This document shows, one piece after another, positions 221 to 10,009 of a DNA stretch of 10,675 nucleotides (positions within the stretch are counted from its first letter, which is position 1; each line of letters opens with the position of its first letter). This stretch comes from an uncultured Desulfobacterium sp. (GTDB taxonomy: Bacteria > Desulfobacterota > Desulfobacteria > Desulfobacterales > Desulfobacteraceae): contig CAKZLA010000179.1 of the NCBI GenBank assembly GCA_937124525.1, forward strand, positions 1 to 10,675. The letters run 5' to 3'. Below the pieces are notes generated by a model. The model had not been told where the DNA came from, did not search any database, and saw only the letters and a program-made list of their open reading frames with translations. A program made the translations under genes and the position numbers.

Positions 221-2245
221 TTAAGGCGTTTTCACCCCATAACCCATGGGTAACTTTTTGAACCTTCCCCCATGGATGATGGGGTCCCCCTCATACCCCA
301 GTGCCTTAAAGTCAATGTAATCCGTGGTATCCTTGAGATGACTTACATCCCGGCCCTTGGACATCATAAAACTGAAATCCGTTCCCTTGTGGGCAATAGC
401 TTTAAAATCCACATCCCGATTGTCCTGGTGGCAGCGATTACAGGTTTTCTCTTCCTTGAGGCTGGCATGACATTGCACACAAGACAAGGCCATATCAGCT
501 GGCATCACCTCGTGCTCCAGACGCCAGTACATCCAGGTTTCCACCCATTTAAAGGTACCGCTGTAATCCAGGTTCACGGCCTGCATGCCATCTGTAAATG
601 CCTTTTCCCAATCCAGATTTTTCCAATAGGCCGTCTTATCCTCTTTATCCCTGGGAAACAGGTGGGGAATTAAAAAATAATCATTTTCCGCATCAACGGC
701 CTGGACCCCCTTCATGATTTTAAACGGCGTGATCTTGGATAAGGGATCGTTAATGGAGCCCACAGGATCGGTCAAATTGATCACAGGGGCATGGATGTTC
801 ACCTTTTCTCCCATGAGGACCCGCTGCATGTAGCCGTCATACCAGGCATAGGTAGGTTTGGGGGATTCCTTCCATTTAAATTCGCCCTTTTTCCAGTTGT
901 AATCGGGTTGACCATACTTGTCTTTTTTAGGCTTTCTTTTTTTATCCCCGGCCTTGGACCAGTCCCACCAGGTCTTAGTGGGTTTGCATTTGGCATAAAC
1001 CGGCGAATGACAGGTATTACAATCAATGGTCTTACAATGGGTATTGAGATGATGGTCCAGTAGACTGCCGCAATAATGGGGGGTATCTGAGTGACAGTCC
1101 TGGCAGGAGACAGCTCCTTCGGAGGCTGGCACCGAAGAACTTCTTCCGGCAATTTTATGATTCCGGGTCTTGTGACACTCGGCACAGGAAAAATCATAGC
1201 CCCCCATGTGAACATCACAACTTCTGTCAGGTTTTAACAATTGCCGGGAAAGATCGGCATGCTTAATGGCATCTCCGCCGCCACCGTTAAAGTGGCAGGC
1301 TCCACAGCTGGCCCGGCTGGAGTGTCCCACATTCTGGGCCACAAATTTCAGATCAACCTCCTTGGCTGGCATCCCCGCACCCGGGGGGGCTTTTTTATAG
1401 GTGCCGGTGGTATCGTGGCACACCAGACAATCCATTTTTGTTTTATCCGTAAAATCAAATGATGCGTCTTTCCATCCATATCCTGCATGACAACTTGTGC
1501 AACGAGCCTCGTTGCTGATGGGGCTGATTCAGTAGTTGTTCAGGGCCGTTGTGCCCTTGCCATGCTGGATGTCCTTTCGATGCTTCACCGTAAAAGGCGA
1601 AGGGCCCTTCCAGAGCCAATGGGCCGTGGTGAGCATATCCTCTGCCTGGGCATCGTGGCACCGCTGGCACTCCGCTGTCACCTGGAATGGGTCTGCGGCG
1701 TCGGGGAGCTTTACCAGTTCCTTGTGATCCGGAACATTTTTCAAATGACACCCTGTGCAGCTCACCGGCCCTTTGGCCTCTTTTTTGTGACAGGCCATGC
1801 ACTGCTGGTGAAACGCCGCTTTTAAGCCCAAACGCTGGGGGTGATCCGCTTTAAACGCCTCCTGATGACAAGCCGAACACCGGGTGGTTTCCGACATGGT
1901 CTCATCTTTTGGCCGATAATGATGGCAGGTGGTGCAGTCGCCGATGAGTGCGCCGTGACGCTTGTGGGCAAATCGCACCGGCCCGTAATGATCTTCTCTG
2001 GCCTTGATAATGGGGCTTTCCAGAAGAAAATAGGTGGTTTCAACATCTTTAATATCAATGCCCTTATCCAACAGACATACCCTTCGCAGAACCTTGCAGT
2101 CATCCTTGACCACATCCACAAAGGGCACCCTCTCCTTTGCCCGTTCCTTTGCCTTTTCCTGGTCCGGGGCCTTCCACACCTCGGCACTGCAAAGACAGGC
2201 GGCAAAAAATACAATGCCGACCCATACTATTATTTTTTTGATCAT
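221..2245 (-). CDS. Selenocysteine-containing 13-heme cytochrome c, octaheme tetrathionate reductase (OTR) family, with N-terminal tetraheme fusion
   Basis: Read as one 674-residue protein through an in-frame TGA (1529-1531, residue 239, read as Sec). It has an N-terminal Sec signal peptide (residues 1-21) and a cytochrome c3/c7-like part with CxxCH motifs at 104, 123, 149 and 163. The OTR-like part has motifs at 193, 249, 273, 314, 354, 381, 409, 589 and 602, giving 13 in total. Downstream of the TGA the same frame continues at once with ISPISNEARCTSCHAGYGW, so the second half has no signal peptide or start of its own. The first ATG after the stop (1435) would cut off the heme motif at 249. 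Asn236, Sec239, Asp325 and Lys328 have exactly the spacing of OTR Asn61, Cys64, Asp150 and Lys153 (numbers from memory). Lys153 is the unusual distal ligand of the catalytic heme. The protein is periplasmic and probably reduces a sulfur or nitrogen oxyanion with electrons from the adjacent NrfD/ferredoxin module. Substrate unknown. The start has a GGGAGG ribosome site and overlaps the NrfD stop (ATGA). The alternative is a nonsense-mutated pseudogene. Confidence 0.85.
1499..1515 (-). promoter_or_regulatory. Bacterial SECIS-type hairpin
   Basis: In the mRNA the stem GCAACGA / UCGUUGC (7 perfect pairs) closes on the loop GGC. It begins 13 nucleotides after the UGA, and the first loop G follows 20 intervening nucleotides. 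E. coli fdhF has its GGUC apical loop at nearly the same distance (18 intervening nucleotides) and a similar C-rich linker. A G at the start of the apical loop is the known SelB-contact feature of bacterial SECIS elements. The hairpin lies inside coding sequence (SNEARC), as expected in bacteria. Function is inferred from position and shape. Confidence 0.78.
1529..1531 (-). other. In-frame UGA proposed as selenocysteine codon (Sec239)
   Basis: The minus strand reads AAC AAC TAC TGA ATC AGC. Both flanks are in one frame and both encode conserved cytochrome sequence (LNNY before, ISPISNEARCTSCH after). The codon aligns with the active-site cysteine of the OTR family, the usual place for selenocysteine to replace cysteine. 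A TGT or TGC to TGA point mutation could give the same picture, but the hairpin immediately downstream favours recoding. Confidence 0.83.
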
Positions 2246-3444
2246 ACAGAGACCTCCCGAGATCCGGATAACACCGGCAGAAAAGTGACAATAAAACGAT
2301 AAAGGAACATCAAAGTTGCTATAAGTCCGGCGGTGACCAGAAACTCTCCCGGGGCCGGGAAATAATTGCTGTTACTCACCGGTGGGGAGTAAGCCACAAT
2401 GAACACATTGATGCGGTTCAAGGCCACGCCCCCCACAATCAGGGCACAGGCAGTGAACAACAGGGGACGGGACCGTCGCACGCGAAGGGAGAGCAACATA
2501 CACCAGGGAACAATGACCCCCATGATAATTTCTAATAAGAAGGAGTTGGTCTGATAGGTGCCATCCAGAAGATACGCCCAGGTGCCCCTTACCGCCATGT
2601 CACCCAACTTCAGGGACATATAAATGCCCAGGGTAAAAATGGTGATGCGGGTAAGAGGGGTGAGTATTTCCATTTCATCGGCCAGTCCCAGTGAGGTGGT
2701 GGCAAGGGTGGTCTCAAAAACCACCATGGGATATCCCACGGAAAATGCCGATGTTAAAAACAACAACGGCAGGATGGGGGTGTACCACAATGGATGAATT
2801 TTGGTGGGAGCAATTAGCATGAGGGACCCAAGGCTGGACTGGTGCATGCAAGACAGCACCACCCCTGCAATGATGAAAACCCACATGAATTTACCAAGAA
2901 GACGATCTGCCCATTGCAGCAGAACCTCCAGAGGACGATTCAATGATGCCAGCAGCCCCGGCAATCGCACACTGTTTTTAAACTGTTCTGCCACAATGGG
3001 TAAAAATTCAATGTAGAGCACATTGAGGTAAAACATCACGCACATGGCCACTTCAAAAAGCACGGAATTGGGGTTCCAGTTAAGCATGGGTTTCCAGATG
3101 GCCCAGGAACGACCGATATCCACCATTAGCCCCAACACAACAAAGGTATATCCCAACACCGCCGTCAACAGGGCCGGTCGGGTCACAGCTTCGTAGGCAT
3201 GGCGACCAAAAACATGGGCCAGGGCCGCCGTGGTAAATCCCCCGGCTGCCAAGGCAACGCCAGTGGCCACATCCACCCCCACCCACAACCCCCAGGGGCG
3301 GGCCGTGGAAAGATTAGACACATATCCAATGCCCCCTGTAAACCTGGCAATCACCGCCACGGCCCCTGCCACCATAAAGGCCAGCATGACATAAACACCA
3401 GGTGTCCAGAATTCTTTATTCACCGGTCGGGGATTATGCGTCAT
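2242..3444 (-). CDS. NrfD/HybB-type integral membrane quinol oxidoreductase subunit
   Basis: A 400-residue, strongly hydrophobic protein with about ten predicted membrane segments, of the NrfD/PsrC/HybB superfamily. Such subunits exchange electrons between menaquinol in the membrane and a periplasmic ferredoxin partner. Recognisable features are the N-terminal [10 protein letters not shown] segment, the [21 protein letters not shown] stretch, the charged segment [14 protein letters not shown], and [15 protein letters not shown], all typical of the HybB branch. I chose the ATG at 3444 because GGAGG lies six bases upstream. A longer frame starting at 3486 would add a lysine-rich, unlikely N-terminus ([11 protein letters not shown]). 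The start overlaps the ferredoxin stop by 11 bases, and the stop overlaps the cytochrome start (ATGA), so the three are translationally coupled. Its job here is probably to feed quinol electrons through the ferredoxin to the cytochrome. Direction of flow is inferred. Confidence 0.9.
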
Positions 3445-4357
3445 GGTGGGCCTCCTTTTCTTTTTCATGACCATTCTTTTTTTCATTTCGACGCATTATC
3501 CCCCCCAGTACCCCAAACAAAAGTATGGGGGACCATAGATAACTGAACAACCCATGCTGGATGGTCTCGGACAATTTGGGGGTGGGCCGATCTGGCAGGC
3601 TGGGAAACCCCAGGTTTTCAAAGGGTTCTGATGAAATATAGACCCATGAGGTGCCCCCCACCTCTTTTTCGCCATAGATGTGATCCACGTATTTACCGGG
3701 ATTGTCTTTAAGTCGCTGTTTTGCAAGCTTCATAATGGTATCCCGCCGGCCAAAGGTGATGGCCTCCACCGGGCAGATGCCAGCGCATCCGGGCAGCCCG
3801 TTCTCCTTGGAAATTCTCTCAAAACAAAAGGTGCATTTCATCACCCGGGGGGTGATGGGATCATAATATTCATAGGCGGGAATCTCAAAGGGACAGGCCA
3901 CCATGCAGTAACGACAGCCAATGCATTTAGTGACATCATAATGGACACTGCCGTTTTCTTTTTTGGTCAATGCCCCCACAATGCATGCCGATGCACAAGC
4001 CGGGTCCTGGCAATGCATGCACTGGAGTTTTACAAAGGTGGGCACCAGTTGATCATGGACATCCAGCTTACCTGGAAAGTACCGATTGACAACAGTGTAG
4101 GCCTTTTCATGGGGACGACGTTTGATATCCAGCACCGTTGGATCATTAAATGAAACTTCCGGTGCCGGCAACCCGTTTACCTGGTTACAGGCCTCTTCGC
4201 ACTTACGGCAACCAATGCACCGGGTGAGATCCACCAGACACCCAAAGGCATCCGGCGGCGCTGCTGATTCCCATGCATGGGCTCCGGCTGCCGGGGTCAC
4301 CGCCGACGCACCGGCGGCCCCCATCACCTTAAAAAAACCACGTCTGTTAATGTTCAT
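3434..4357 (-). CDS. Tat-exported HybA/NrfC-like ferredoxin with four [4Fe-4S] sites and C-terminal membrane anchor
   Basis: 307 residues. The N-terminus [13 protein letters not shown] is a twin-arginine signal, followed by an alanine-rich stretch to about residue 28. Four cysteine sets follow: 47/50/53/57, 113/116/121/125, 145/148/151/155 and 175/178/191/195. This is the pattern of the four-cluster electron-transfer subunits HybA, NrfC and DmsB. One predicted membrane helix (about 269-288, [19 protein letters not shown]) near the C-terminus matches HybA, followed by a charged His/Lys/Glu tail. It would sit on the periplasmic face between the NrfD quinol site and the multiheme cytochrome. It is the first gene of the operon. 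An AGGAG ribosome site precedes the ATG. The downstream NrfD frame overlaps its end by 11 bases. Confidence 0.92.
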
Positions 4358-4493: not shown

Positions 4494-4507
4494 GCAATAG
4501 TTATGCC
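4494..4507 (-). promoter_or_regulatory. Sigma54 (RpoN) -24/-12 promoter of the ferredoxin-NrfD-cytochrome operon
   Basis: The minus strand reads CGGCATAACTATTGCT, against the consensus TGGCACG-N4-TTGCW. The essential GG (4507-4506) and GC (4495-4494) are exactly ten bases apart, and GGCA and TTGCT are both kept. Transcription would start near 4482, leaving a 5' leader of about 125 bases before the ferredoxin ATG at 4357. A divergent sigma54 activator gene next door supports the call. Confidence 0.72.
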
Positions 4508-4535
4508 GTTGGCTTTTTAAAGAATATTAAAGGTT

Positions 4536-4657: not shown

Positions 4658-6064
4658 ATGGAAATAAAAGAGATAAATCAATACTGGGAAAAAATCATTA
4701 ACACCATGAACGACGGCCTGATGGTGGTGGCTCCAGATTGCACCATCCTCATGGTGAACAGCGCCTTTGAACAGATGACAGGTTACACTTCCGAAGAAAT
4801 CGTTGGACATTCCTGTAAAATATTGGAATGTGATGCCTGCGAAACCACCCTGATAAAAACAGACGATGCAAATTCGTGCAGACTTTTCAGGCCCGGGCAA
4901 ACGGACATCAAGCGATGCCGCTGCCATGCCCTGTGCAAGGACGGCACCTTTTTACCGATTCTAAAAAACGCCTCTATTTTAAGGGATGATCATGGTATTG
5001 CCATGGGGGTGGTGGAAACTCTCACCGATATGTCAGAGCTGACTCGGCTGGATCGCCAGGTACACCAGCTGGAACGTCAGGTACACCTGAAAAAAGGATT
5101 TTATGGTATTCTGGGAAATTCCCGGGCCATGCACAATGTATTTGACCTGATTGAAAAGGCAGCGGAGAGCAACGCACCGGTGATCATTCTGGGAGAAAGC
5201 GGCACAGGCAAGGAACTGGTGGCCAATGCCATCCACATGTGCAGCAGTCGCAAACAGCAACCTTTTATTAAACTCAACTGCGCAGCCCTCAACGAATCGT
5301 TGTTGGAGAGCGAACTCTTTGGCCATGTAAAAGGGGCCTTCACCGGTGCCCATGCCCGACGTATGGGTCGATTTGAAGCGGCCCATGGCGGCAGCTTCTT
5401 TCTGGATGAAATCGGAGATGCCCCCCTGTCCATACAGACCAAGCTGTTAAGGGTCCTGGAAACCGGTCAATTTGAGGCGGTGGGGGAAGTAAACCCCACA
5501 TCTGTGGATGTCCGCATCATCACCGCCACCAACCAGGATCTCAATGAAATGATCGCCCAACGTCTGTTCCGTGAAGATCTATTTTTCCGCATCAACGTCA
5601 TCCCCATACACCTGCCCCCCCTTCGCCATCGAAAAGAGGAAATCCCGCTCCTGGTCAATACCTTTATCCATCGCCTCAACAATGAGAGCGAAAAGACTGT
5701 CACCGGATTAAGCCCCCAGGCCATGGAACGATTCATAAGCTATGACTGGCCCGGCAACGTCCGGGAACTGAAAAATGCTTTGGAATATGCCTATGTAATC
5801 ACCGAGGGAGACAGTATCCATGCCGACCATCTTCCCCGGCAGATACAAACGGATATCACGGCCCCCGGAAAGATGGCTTTAAAAGGGGAGGATATAAGCA
5901 TGCCAACGAAAAAAAACAATGAAAAAGAGGCATTGGTGGAGGCATTGAAAACCACAGGAGGGAACCAAAGCCAGGCAGCCCGACTCCTTGGCATCAATCG
6001 CGTCACGGTGTGGAACCGCATGAAAAAATATGGCATTGACCTGAAAAAAATTATTACCCAGTAA
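4658..6064 (+). CDS. Sigma54-dependent transcriptional activator, cysteine-rich PAS - AAA+ - Fis HTH
   Basis: 468 residues. An N-terminal PAS sensor domain (about 8-125) is followed by a short coiled linker (125-146, LDRQVHQLERQVHLKKG). The AAA+ sigma54-interaction domain (about 150-375) has Walker A GESGTGKE (179-186), the sigma54-contacting GAFTGA loop (226-231), Walker B GGSFFLDE (244-251), the RLFREDLFFRIN arginine-finger region (302-313) and WPGNVREL (364-371). A Fis-type helix-turn-helix (about 436-460) closes the protein. There is no phospho-receiver domain, so the signal is probably sensed directly by the PAS domain. That domain holds an unusual set of cysteines (53, 58, 61, 74, 87, 89, 93) that could bind a metal or Fe-S cluster or act as a thiol switch. 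The ATG is preceded by AGGA. The gene is divergent from the selenocytochrome operon, which has a sigma54 promoter, so it is very likely its activator. The signal is unknown. Confidence 0.93.
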   Translation: MEIKEINQYWEKIINTMNDGLMVVAPDCTILMVNSAFEQMTGYTSEEIVGHSCKILECDACETTLIKTDDANSCRLFRPGQTDIKRCRCHALCKDGTFLPILKNASILRDDHGIAMGVVETLTDMSELTRLDRQVHQLERQVHLKKGFYGILGNSRAMHNVFDLIEKAAESNAPVIILGESGTGKELVANAIHMCSSRKQQPFIKLNCAALNESLLESELFGHVKGAFTGAHARRMGRFEAAHGGSFFLDEIGDAPLSIQTKLLRVLETGQFEAVGEVNPTSVDVRIITATNQDLNEMIAQRLFREDLFFRINVIPIHLPPLRHRKEEIPLLVNTFIHRLNNESEKTVTGLSPQAMERFISYDWPGNVRELKNALEYAYVITEGDSIHADHLPRQIQTDITAPGKMALKGEDISMPTKKNNEKEALVEALKTTGGNQSQAARLLGINRVTVWNRMKKYGIDLKKIITQ

Positions 6065-7345: not shown

Positions 7346-7713
7346 GGGGTTCACCTTGTTCTTTTATTTAAAACTCCGTCCAAGCGACTGGAATCATGAG
7401 AGTTTCAATTTTCGTTGTGGCAGATGGTTACTGCCATGTATGCTCAATTGTTCCTTTCTTAGGACCTAATCATAACATCTGGTATTCATGGAAGGAGATT
7501 TAGGGCTATTTAGATTAGGTATCACATTTGCAGCGGACAGAACAAGCGGTAAGTTTTCCTTTTTTTTCTTGTTCTTTTTCCCTTCAGAAGGCTATAATCT
7601 GTATCTAAACTTCCTGGCGTGGTCCAGGCTCTTTGATTTATTTGTCTGGCAGGATAATTGCATATACTGAATCCCATATCACAATGAAATTCATAACCAT
7701 CAAGGGGGGAACC
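7346..7713. other. Intergenic region between rocD and the flavoprotein gene
   Basis: This 368-bp divergent spacer has no convincing gene. A 60-codon frame at 7488-7670 (plus) has a poly-T-derived phenylalanine run and no family signal, so I leave it out. The right half holds the promoter reported at 7569-7598 and a good ribosome site (AAGGGGGGA) before the ATG at 7714. I found no clear rocD promoter on the minus strand. Confidence 0.5.
7569..7598 (+). promoter_or_regulatory. Probable sigma70 promoter of the flavoprotein-rubrerythrin operon
   Basis: TTGTTC (7569-7574) and a perfect TATAAT (7593-7598) are separated by 18 bases. Transcription would begin near 7605, about 109 bases before the flavoprotein ATG. 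A TATACT further downstream (about 7664) is a weaker alternative. Confidence 0.5.
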
Positions 7714-8856
7714 ATGACATCTCATCTTATCATCGGGAATGGCGCAGCTGGAACAACCGCGGCGGAACAGATCCGGAAACAAGATCCCAATGCTGGGATC
7801 ACCATGATCACCAAAGAGCCTCTTCCCCTGTACAGTCGCATACGGATTCCAGACTTTTTAGGTGGAAAAATCCAGGAACAGACCTTGATTATTAAAGATC
7901 TCCCATGGCACGAGCAACGCGGGATCAACCTAATAACAGAGACAATAGTGTCCCATGTGGACTATAAAAACAAAACGGCAGTAGCAGAGGATGGGACGTT
8001 ATTTCCCTATGATACCCTGCTGCTGGCAACGGGGAGCAACTCCTTTATCCCCCCCATCAAAGGCAGCGATAAAAAAGGGGTTTTTACTCTGAGAACCGCA
8101 GCCGATGCCAGGGCGCTGGCTGCCATGGATGCAGAGGACAAAGAGGTGGTACTCATCGGCGGTGGCCTTCTGGGACTTGAAGCAGCTTCGGCCCTGGTCA
8201 GCACGGGCAAACGAGTGACAGTGGTGGAGTTTTTTGACCGACTTCTTCCACGGCAACTGGATAATGAAGGGGCTGGCAGGCTACAGTCCCTTCTGGAAGC
8301 CATGGGGTTTACCTTCAGACTGGGGGAGGTCACCCAAGAGATTTCCGGCAAAGACCGTGTGGATGGCGTGTGTCTCAAATCCGGTGAGACACTTAAGGCC
8401 AATGCTGTTCTTTTTTCTGCTGGGGTTCGCTCGGAATTATCCCTGGTGGCTGATTCCGGCATGGAAACAGATCGTGGCATTGTTGTAAATGAGCAAATGG
8501 AAACATCCCTTACCGGGGTATATGCCGCCGGAGATGTGGCTCAGTTTGACGACATCAATTTCTGTATATGGCCAGAGGCCGTGGAACAGGGACGGGTGGC
8601 AGGCATAAATATGGCAGGGGGGAAGGCAACCTTTAAGAACACGCCCCCCTCCAATGTTTTAAAGGTAGCAGGAATTTCCCTTGCATCTGCGGGGGAGATT
8701 GATGTGGAAGGTAAAATGAACTCAGACATCGTTGCCAGTGATACCGTGTATCAAAAAATTGTAAAAGATGCTGACGGAAACATCATTGGCTGTATCATGC
8801 TGGGGGATACCACGCAATTTAACAGCATACTCAAACAAATAAAAGGAGAACAATAG
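7714..8856 (+). CDS. FAD/NAD(P)H-dependent oxidoreductase, NADH:rubredoxin oxidoreductase-like
   Basis: 380 residues of the two-dinucleotide-fold flavoprotein disulfide reductase superfamily. The FAD fold begins at once (LIIGNGAAGT, residues 6-14), the NAD fold is at 146-156 (VVLIGGGLLGL), and the second FAD motif GVYAAGDVAQF is at 268-278. There is no CxxxxC redox-active disulfide in the first domain, which fits rubredoxin/NADH oxidase-type reductases rather than thioredoxin or lipoamide reductases. It probably passes NADH electrons to rubredoxin-type centres, including rubrerythrin encoded three bases downstream, to drive peroxide reduction in the cytoplasm. I chose the ATG at 7714, which has the ribosome site AAGGGGGGA and gives a start next to the FAD motif. 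Upstream in-frame ATGs at 7633 and 7684 would add a tail before the fold. The exact electron acceptor is inferred. Confidence 0.85.
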   Translation: MTSHLIIGNGAAGTTAAEQIRKQDPNAGITMITKEPLPLYSRIRIPDFLGGKIQEQTLIIKDLPWHEQRGINLITETIVSHVDYKNKTAVAEDGTLFPYDTLLLATGSNSFIPPIKGSDKKGVFTLRTAADARALAAMDAEDKEVVLIGGGLLGLEAASALVSTGKRVTVVEFFDRLLPRQLDNEGAGRLQSLLEAMGFTFRLGEVTQEISGKDRVDGVCLKSGETLKANAVLFSAGVRSELSLVADSGMETDRGIVVNEQMETSLTGVYAAGDVAQFDDINFCIWPEAVEQGRVAGINMAGGKATFKNTPPSNVLKVAGISLASAGEIDVEGKMNSDIVASDTVYQKIVKDADGNIIGCIMLGDTTQFNSILKQIKGEQ

Positions 8857-8859
8857 ATC

Positions 8860-9438
8860 ATGGCAGAGTTAAAGGGAACAGAAACAGAAAAAAATCTACT
8901 CAAGGCTTTTGCAGGGGAATCCCAGGCAAGGAATCGATACAACTATTTCGCAAGTATCGCCAAGAAAGAGGGCTTTGTGCAGATGGCTCATATTTTTGAA
9001 GAGACCGCTGACCAGGAAAAAGAGCATGCCAAACGTCTGTTTAAATTTTTGAAAAGCGGAGAAGAAATTGAAATCACCGCAGCCTTTCCAGCCGGTGCCT
9101 TAAAGGGCACTGTGGAAAACCTTGAGGCATCTGCAGCCGGTGAAAACTATGAGCACACCACCATGTACCCTGAATTTGCCGTAACGGCAAAAGAAGAAGG
9201 ATTTGATGCCATTGCCGATATATTCACGGCCATTGCCGTTGCAGAAAAACAGCACGAAAAAAGATTTCTTGATTTAAAGGCCAACATTGAAAGTGACAAG
9301 GTCTTTAAAAGAGACACAAGCGTTACATGGCGTTGCCGTAACTGTGGCTATCTCCATGAAGGGAATGAAGCCCCGGATGTCTGCCCGGCATGTGCCCATC
9401 CAAAGGCACATTTTGAACTTCTGGGTGAAAATTATTAA
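8860..9438 (+). CDS. rbr: Rubrerythrin
   Basis: 192 residues, the standard length. An N-terminal ferritin-like four-helix domain carries the diiron ligands: Glu20, Glu53 with His56 (EETADQEKEHAKR), Glu95 and Glu98 (GENYEHTTMY), and Glu129 with His132 (AEKQHEKRF). A C-terminal rubredoxin-like domain holds one Fe(Cys)4 site (Cys159, Cys162, Cys175, Cys178; CRNCGYLHEG...CPACAHPKAHF). It reduces hydrogen peroxide to water in anaerobes without making O2. The ATG follows the flavoprotein stop by three bases. GGAG lies 11 bases upstream, inside the end of the flavoprotein gene, so the two are co-transcribed and the flavoprotein is a plausible electron donor. Confidence 0.96.
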   Translation: MAELKGTETEKNLLKAFAGESQARNRYNYFASIAKKEGFVQMAHIFEETADQEKEHAKRLFKFLKSGEEIEITAAFPAGALKGTVENLEASAAGENYEHTTMYPEFAVTAKEEGFDAIADIFTAIAVAEKQHEKRFLDLKANIESDKVFKRDTSVTWRCRNCGYLHEGNEAPDVCPACAHPKAHFELLGENY

Positions 9439-9599
9439 CCCGTGGCGCTTTCGCTTTAATAACCTATGATCATGCCCGCATACTTGGGGAGTCAGAGCAA
9501 ATCAATTTACCTGCAAATTCGGCTGCAAAGCTGATATCTCTAAGCTTTAAAAAAAATAAGTGATAGATTGAAAACTTCTGACTCCATTATGGGGCAATT

Positions 9600-9617
9600 G
9601 TTAATAATATAATCAAC
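9600..9617. promoter_or_regulatory. AT-rich dyad before desulfoferrodoxin, possible Fur/PerR-family operator overlapping a -10 box
   Basis: GTTAATAATATAATCAAC pairs at 7 of 9 positions about its centre and contains TATAAT (9608-9613), with no good -35 at 17 bases. Its composition recalls Fur/PerR boxes, and PerR-type control of rubrerythrin and related genes is known in Desulfovibrio. The site lies 18 bases before the ATG, so a repressor bound here could block transcription. Weak evidence. Confidence 0.3.
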
Positions 9618-9634
9618 CATTTAAAGGAGGTATC

Positions 9635-10009
9635 ATGGCGGAGAAACTGGGTATTTACAAATGTGAAAAATGTGGAAATATTGTTGAAGTCCTGCATGGA
9701 GAAAAACCCCCGCTGAGTTGCTGCAATCAGCCCATGGCATTGATGACGGAAAATACAGTGGATGCAGCCCTGGAAAAACATGTACCTGTCATTGAGAAAA
9801 TTGAAGGTGGGTATCTTGTCAAGGTGGGAAGTGTTGCCCATCCCATGGAAGAAAAACACTACATTGAGTGGATTGAACTCAATGCAGAGGGAATGGTTTA
9901 CCGAAAATTTCTAAATCCCGGCGACACCCCCGAAGCCACTTTTCTCACAGATGCCGACAATGTAACGGCCCGGGAATTCTGTAATATCCACGGGTTCTGG
10001 AAATCCTGA
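9635..10009 (+). CDS. dfx: Desulfoferrodoxin (class I superoxide reductase)
   Basis: 124 residues, the usual length for the two-iron class. The N-terminal desulforedoxin-like Fe(Cys)4 centre uses Cys10, Cys13, Cys29 and Cys30 (YKCEKCG...LSCC). The catalytic centre II uses His49 (EKHVPV), His69 (VAHPM), His75 (EKHYIEW), Cys116 and His119 (CNIHG). The EK pair that includes the proton-donor lysine (Lys48) is present, so the enzyme looks fully active. It reduces superoxide to hydrogen peroxide in the cytoplasm, which the rubrerythrin encoded upstream can then remove. A strong AAAGGAGG site lies just before the ATG. The 196-bp gap from rubrerythrin and the dyad in it suggest its own promoter. Confidence 0.97.

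Follow-up and report, generated by a model that had tools for sequence, protein, structure and literature searches.

Octaheme tetrathionate reductase (OTR) has been described as an enzyme of 'cryptic function' (PMC11024163) and reduces tetrathionate, nitrite and hydroxylamine (PMC4484225, PMC11024163). Catalysis takes place at its second heme, to which a conserved lysine serves as ligand (PMC11024163), and the protein from Shewanella has been presented as a periplasmic enzyme that is fed by STC (PMC4484225). In sulfate reducers, an 'octaheme cytochrome complex (Ohc)' has been named (PMC6302107). The family that comprises OTR is defined by TIGR04315, 'tetrathionate reductase family octaheme c-type cytochrome', and selenocysteine (Sec) has already been recorded in it. 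Table 1 of a 2026 review lists a TIGR04315 octaheme c-type cytochrome with one Sec, WP_331457571.1, as GenBank annotated and without a motif, and in the available text of that review the word 'octaheme' appears once (PMC13188914). A Sec-containing OTR is therefore not new as such, and the preliminary description of the DNA studied here, which knew of no family member with selenocysteine, is outdated on this point. The genome paper on Desulfobacterium autotrophicum lists 31 selenoproteins (PMC2702500). Five selenoprotein genes are named for Desulfococcus multivorans, with no OTR among those named in the available text (PMC5109826).

Here, we analyze a stretch of 10,675 nucleotides (the window) from an uncultured Desulfobacterium sp. 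(GCA_937124525.1, contig CAKZLA010000179.1), the closest relative of which is a sulfate-reducing bacterium. Its features are collected in Table 1.

Table 1. Features of the window discussed in the text (positions refer to the complete stretch; residue numbers refer to the 674-residue readthrough protein)
Feature	Position	Strand	Basis
Gene for a predicted Sec-containing cytochrome of the OTR family (OhcA-like); 674 codons, one in-frame TGA, 13 CXXCH	221..2245	-	
In-frame TGA, codon 239, predicted selenocysteine	1529..1531	-	
Predicted N-terminal export signal, residues 1 to ~22 (MIKK + hydrophobic stretch)	2180..2245	-	by eye
N-terminal domain with four hemes, similar to cytochrome c3/c7 (residues 85-170); CXXCH at 104, 123, 149, 163	1736..1993	-	Pfam Cytochrom_CIII, Cytochrome_C7
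OTR core, residues 183-595	461..1699	-	TIGR04315 match
Second heme motif of the OTR core (CTSCH, residues 249-253), motif of the predicted catalytic, Lys-ligated heme	1487..1501	-	1SP3 alignment; available text of PMC11024163
K328, at the position of the Lys that ligates heme in OTR	1262..1264	-	1SP3 alignment
D325	1271..1273	-	alignment
Predicted SECIS hairpin GCAACGA-GGC-TCGTTGC, 13 nt after the TGA	1499..1515	-	
NrfD-family integral membrane subunit (OhcC/HmcC/HybB-like); 4-nt overlap (ATGA) with the cytochrome start	2242..3486	-	
4Fe-4S subunit, Tat-like start (OhcB/HmcB/HybA-like)	3434..4357	-	
PAS + sigma-54 activator, divergent	4658..6064	+	

A multiheme cytochrome frame spanning a TGA codon

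Two apparent genes in the window make up a single frame that is split by one TGA, as had been proposed in the preliminary description. When TGA codon 239 (1531-1529) is read through, an unbroken protein of 674 residues results; the frame has no other break and the gene terminates with TAA. The protein matches TIGR04315 with 494.5 bits (cut-off 375) in a single stretch that covers residues 183-595 and spans the TGA, in agreement with the earlier view that the halves belong together and that the protein is a member of the OTR family. Its 13 CXXCH motifs are divided into four that are N-terminal, eight in the OTR core (193, 249, 273, 314, 354, 381, 409 and 589) and one just past the core at residue 602. 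The earliest start of the downstream open reading frame is an ATG situated 32 codons past the TGA and beyond the CTSCH heme motif, and no export signal was seen on the downstream half when its translation was inspected by eye.

The match of the window protein to Shewanella OTR (1SP3) scores 394 bits and places the TGA on the cysteine of the NNFC motif, ten residues ahead of the second heme motif in the OTR core. This alignment confirms the conserved OTR cysteine as the site of the TGA and likewise the spacing that had been noticed around it, with Asn at -3 (N236), Asp at +86 (D325) and Lys at +89 (K328). The lysine is invariant in all of the 47 proteins aligned. On the basis of the work on 1SP3, we take the cysteine of NNFC to be located at the catalytic, Lys-ligated heme. 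A fold search with an AlphaFold model of the window protein returned 1SP3 as the only match at E values up to 0.001. The model served for fold matching only; with pLDDT values of about 63 around residue 239 and below 50 around residue 328, it is not reliable enough in this region to yield distances.

The codon at the site and its hairpin in homologous genes

Homologous loci were fetched from named genomes, and 54 of the 61 cover the site while seven do not. Among the covering loci, 30 have TGA and 24 have TGC or TGT at the site, and nothing else occurs. A search of 291 genomes of the same order yielded an OTR match above the cut-off in 155; among the 150 order matches listed, 22 contain an internal stop, and all 22 stops are TGA. 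Reading of 70 of these listed matches gave 21 TGA codons, each exactly at the site and with the aligned part otherwise free of stops, although the proportion of TGA in this set means nothing because the 70 were partly chosen for TGA. The remaining listed match with a TGA stems from the genome of locus L024, which has TGA at the site. The family of Desulfocicer vacuolatum makes up a less biased sample: here, a search at E 1e-150 gave matches in 32 of 78 genomes, and 21 of these matches have one TGA, one has two and ten have none. In the family of the genome that contains locus L025, six matches above the cut-off were found in 14 genomes, every one of them with one TGA. From these two family searches 25 further loci were read (18 TGA, 7 TGC/TGT). 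In total, 150 sites were read including that of the window, and removal of eight duplicates left 142 distinct OTR sites with 63 TGA, 51 TGC and 28 TGT codons (79 Cys), whereas TAA or TAG was found at none of the 142. The TGA of the window is thus shared with 62 other distinct loci, and its presence at this site in related genomes, which had been raised as a possibility, is established.

Some single loci deserve mention. In L034, a copy from a metagenome-assembled genome that was left uncounted, the best single-frame alignment misses the site while tblastn matches the whole gene, a discrepancy that is probably due to a frameshift. L150, from the D. vacuolatum family, has a second in-frame TGA at query residue 283, where Tyr is otherwise invariant, and its match ends early; this second TGA may reflect decay or a faulty assembly. 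The genome of D. vacuolatum additionally contains a paralogous OTR with Cys (L112).

On the protein level, 118 of the best 120 of 4289 hits cover the site and exhibit Cys in 105 cases, Leu in 11 and Thr and Ala in one case each. The other two of the best 120 are orphan downstream halves (P0114, P0118), showing that gene callers can split Sec OTR genes in two and that the resulting fragments reside in the protein database. The earlier expectation that the TGA column is Cys in all other homologues therefore holds for the 105 but not for the 13 proteins with Leu, Thr or Ala, all of which fall into one clade of 17 that is set apart from the Sec rows. The members concerned are P0097, P0102-P0106, P0109-P0112, P0115, P0119 and P0121 (one with Thr, one with Ala). 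As judged from these sequences, some OTRs do without Cys or Sec at this column, and a chalcogen is thus not needed for the fold, the conserved lysine or every function of the family.

The hairpin that follows the TGA in the window extends with its 3' arm into the motif of the predicted catalytic heme and takes in the first Cys codon there. Hairpins of 7 bp, placed at a fixed distance from the site, are present at 63 of 63 TGA sites as opposed to one of 79 Cys sites, and they come in two types. The first, found at 55 TGA sites, has the form GCAACGA-G[GT]C-TCGTTGC, starts 13 nt after the TGA and contains one G-U pair in L032. The second is found at eight TGA sites in the form [CT]TGGTGC-AG[GT]T-GCACCA[GA], starts 17 nt after the TGA and has an outer pair that changes from C-G to T-A, both sides changing together. 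Synonymous variation was assessed for 35 Sec loci of the window's subfamily in those 376 codon columns in which the majority residue occurs in at least 28 rows and is not Met or Trp; the six columns without any such variation are contiguous (244-249) and are those of the hairpin. Wherever a first-hairpin row has Arg at +9 (43 rows), the codon is CGT, whereas Cys rows use six codons. Position +8 is Ala or Ser in 44 of 44 first-hairpin rows and Pro in 44 of 72 Cys rows, an association of Sec with non-proline residues that is not significant on independent pairs (median p 0.06). When the hairpin region is folded as a single sequence, its energy is ordinary (z -1.0; 35 of 200 shuffles are as stable), so that the argument for a SECIS element rests on comparison and not on energy, and an Rfam gathering search of the window gave no match. 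Since the hairpin is conserved right after the UGA, selenocysteine is very likely inserted at this codon.

Five further genes of D. vacuolatum with an in-frame TGA (L137-L140, L143), namely selD and four formate-dehydrogenase-like genes, have hairpins that start 10-14 nt after the TGA and the loops of which begin with GG. From knowledge of the respective families, we assume that these five are Sec genes.

A tree of 124 rows was calculated by a quick method without bootstrap, leaving out the site and the 12 following residues. It calls for at least nine changes between Sec and Cys on the best tree, seven of them forced by well-supported (starred) branches, compared with about 40 for shuffled labels; these counts do not generally distinguish gains from losses. 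In six to seven of seven independent pairs, the hairpin changes along with Sec, and never in the opposite direction. Desulfospira joergensenii (L011) has Cys and lacks the hairpin inside a starred set of 22 otherwise Sec-containing rows. Locus L089 has TGT (Cys) at the site and has kept the complete Sec hairpin together with the SNEARC codons, and by its sequence appears to have switched between Sec and Cys very recently. Desulfocicer vacuolatum DSM 3385 (Sec) and Desulfospira joergensenii DSM 10085 (Cys, within the Sec clade) are cultured sulfate reducers with closely related forms of the protein and offer a natural experiment on the role of the cysteine.

SelA, SelB, SelD and tRNA-Sec all score above the cut-off in D. 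vacuolatum, the nearest relative, whose protein is 95% identical to that of the window. Among 19 genomes with the TGA form, SelB exceeds the cut-off in 18 and tRNA-Sec in 15, and each does so in four of five genomes with the Cys form, such that the machinery fits but does not tell Sec and Cys forms apart. In 14 control genomes, SelB was above the cut-off in two and tRNA-Sec in five. The best explanation overall is that the TGA-split gene encodes one OTR-family multiheme cytochrome, very likely with Sec at the position of the OTR cysteine, and the recoding of the TGA that had been put forward from the window's sequence finds support in the hairpin, the codon invariance, the interchange of Cys and TGA and the Sec machinery of relatives. 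SelB would insert Sec at the UGA with the aid of the hairpin 13 nt downstream.

Operon context and readings of the locus

The genes for the NrfD and Fe-S subunits are located upstream of the cytochrome gene on the same strand. Ohc complexes combine an octaheme-type cytochrome (OhcA) with an Fe-S protein (OhcB) and an NrfD-family membrane protein (OhcC), all encoded in one operon, and by gene order this set is present in the window. Genes resembling those for OhcB and OhcC both occur upstream in 25 of 30 TGA loci. As for the others, the NrfD gene is at the contig edge in L006 and L014, L019 has no upstream DNA, L050 is on a short contig and L032 has a TGA-containing OTR gene without partner genes in 6 kb upstream. 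A sigma-54 activator gene is found near the operon in 18 of the 30 TGA loci, and genes for the Fe-S subunit, the NrfD subunit and the activator are all present in five of five Cys loci of the same subfamily. The equivalog cut-offs for Hmc are missed (HmcA 55.9/400, HmcB 363.9/420, HmcC 273.5/550) while the Fe-S subunit passes that for HybA (272.8 vs 263). A scan for sigma-54 promoters returned 18 matches vs 14 expected by chance, and the match upstream of the operon (4494-4508, minus strand, two mismatches) proves nothing.

Two further observations concern the surroundings. On the 3' side of the cytochrome gene, a perfect 9-nt inverted repeat (GGCATCCTT/AAGGATGCC at 108-116 and 172-180, 55 nt apart) possibly represents the ends of a small mobile element. 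At 7633-10009 on the plus strand, genes for an NAD(P)H-type oxidoreductase, rubrerythrin and desulfoferrodoxin stand in a row that looks like an oxygen-defence cluster and was not found in the 14 kb of locus L001.

The window protein may constitute the periplasmic part of a complex of the Ohc type. Electrons from menaquinol would enter it via the NrfD and Fe-S subunits and travel along the 13 hemes to the one with the Lys ligand. At this heme, the substrate would be attacked by a selenolate at a sulfur-sulfur (or N-O/S-O) bond; as the substrate, tetrathionate or a polythionate/polysulfide is a first guess; an Se-S adduct would form and be cleaved by electrons from the heme, and Cys versions would perform the same chemistry with a thiolate. 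With Sec at codon 239, selenium would adjoin the predicted catalytic heme. The new kind of redox centre that the preliminary description saw in this is a conjecture, and the clade with Leu at this column shows that some OTRs do without the chalcogen. As a whole, we tentatively propose, with confidence somewhat short of even, a catalytic selenolate-heme centre that evolution has switched on and off, that is specified by two kinds of hairpin overlapping codons of the catalytic heme motif and that in its Sec form breaks sulfur-sulfur bonds as part of a quinol-driven periplasmic complex of sulfate reducers.

It is conceivable, though less likely than not, that the complex described here conducts electrons between the quinone pool and cytochromes of the periplasm, a role also ascribed to Hmc, with Sec present but not acting as a nucleophile. 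Sec might then tune or protect the Lys-ligated heme, for example as a transient ligand or as an oxidation-resistant residue. The similarity of the operon to those for the Hmc and Ohc electron-transfer complexes, the 13 heme motifs and the Leu clade, which has neither Cys nor Sec at the column, are all in line with such a function, whereas the retention of Cys or Sec at 142 of 142 distinct genome sites and in 105 of the 118 protein hits that cover the site speaks against it.

The remaining alternatives deny selenocysteine altogether. It is very improbable that the TGA is decoded as a different residue, for instance Trp or Cys, be it through near-cognate readthrough or under an altered genetic code. 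Cys would restore the consensus of the family, but in the window TGA terminates both the NrfD gene next to the cytochrome gene and the gene for desulfoferrodoxin, and therefore acts as a stop here; moreover, the closest relative possesses Sec machinery and hairpins in like position, and plain readthrough to Cys needs no invariant hairpin. Even less credit can be given to the TGA as a real stop in a gene that is decaying or makes two separate proteins. It is true that databases list downstream halves as separate proteins (P0114, P0118) and that the second TGA of L150 indicates that single copies may decay. A real stop is nevertheless hard to reconcile with 63 distinct loci that have TGA in this column without a single TAA or TAG among the 142, with TGA as the stop in 22 of 22 stop-bearing rows among the 150 listed OTR matches, with invariant codons in the hairpin and with a downstream half that has no export signal (by eye) and begins after the second core heme motif. 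In addition, 120 synonymous face 16 non-synonymous differences past the TGA when codons 240-669 are compared with the nearest relative, L001. A sequencing or assembly error, for which nothing speaks except that the window is a single reading, has a negligible probability, as 62 other distinct loci have the TGA as well, among them two on contigs of 5.2 and 6.0 Mb (L156, L157). A real stop, decay, a sequencing error and near-cognate readthrough are all rejected.

Comparison with known systems

An earlier candidate for a c-type cytochrome with Sec is ExtKL of Geobacter (NF040886), which shares with the window protein the character of a multiheme cytochrome with an in-frame TGA and a predicted Sec (PMC1914089, PMC5877670). 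In ExtKL, however, the heme motifs are N-terminal, the hemes number five and the protein is not an OTR, and its C-terminal part resembles no characterised protein according to the available text (PMC1914089). The chemistry proposed above has a model in the thiosulfate dehydrogenase/tetrathionate reductase TsdA, where a heme cysteine forms a Cys S-thiosulfonate intermediate (PMC4423706). TsdA differs in being a diheme enzyme of another family, the cysteine of which ligates heme.

In the open-licence literature, as far as its text was available, we found no further description of Sec in connection with OTR or multiheme cytochromes, nor did we find a characterisation of Sec adjoining a catalytic heme c in that literature. 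WP_331457571.1 has membership in TIGR04315 and one Sec in common with the window protein, but is a table row that comes without the position of Sec, a hairpin, evolution or an operon in the available text (PMC13188914). New in comparison with this review are the exact site, the hairpin in its two types, the invariant codons that write it, the repeated switching between Sec and Cys and the operon.

With the Ohc and Hmc complexes of sulfate reducers, the locus shares the combination of a cytochrome c, an Fe-S protein and an NrfD-family membrane subunit in one operon. It deviates from them by the predicted Sec in the cytochrome and by scores below the Hmc equivalog cut-offs. Shewanella oneidensis OTR (1SP3) and the window protein have in common the core with eight CXXCH motifs, the NN[FY]-C/U motif, the lysine of the catalytic heme and Asp at +86. 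The window protein differs from it in that a UGA-coded residue replaces the cysteine, in that four N-terminal heme motifs and one C-terminal motif are added to the core, and in that its operon encodes HmcB- and NrfD-like subunits.
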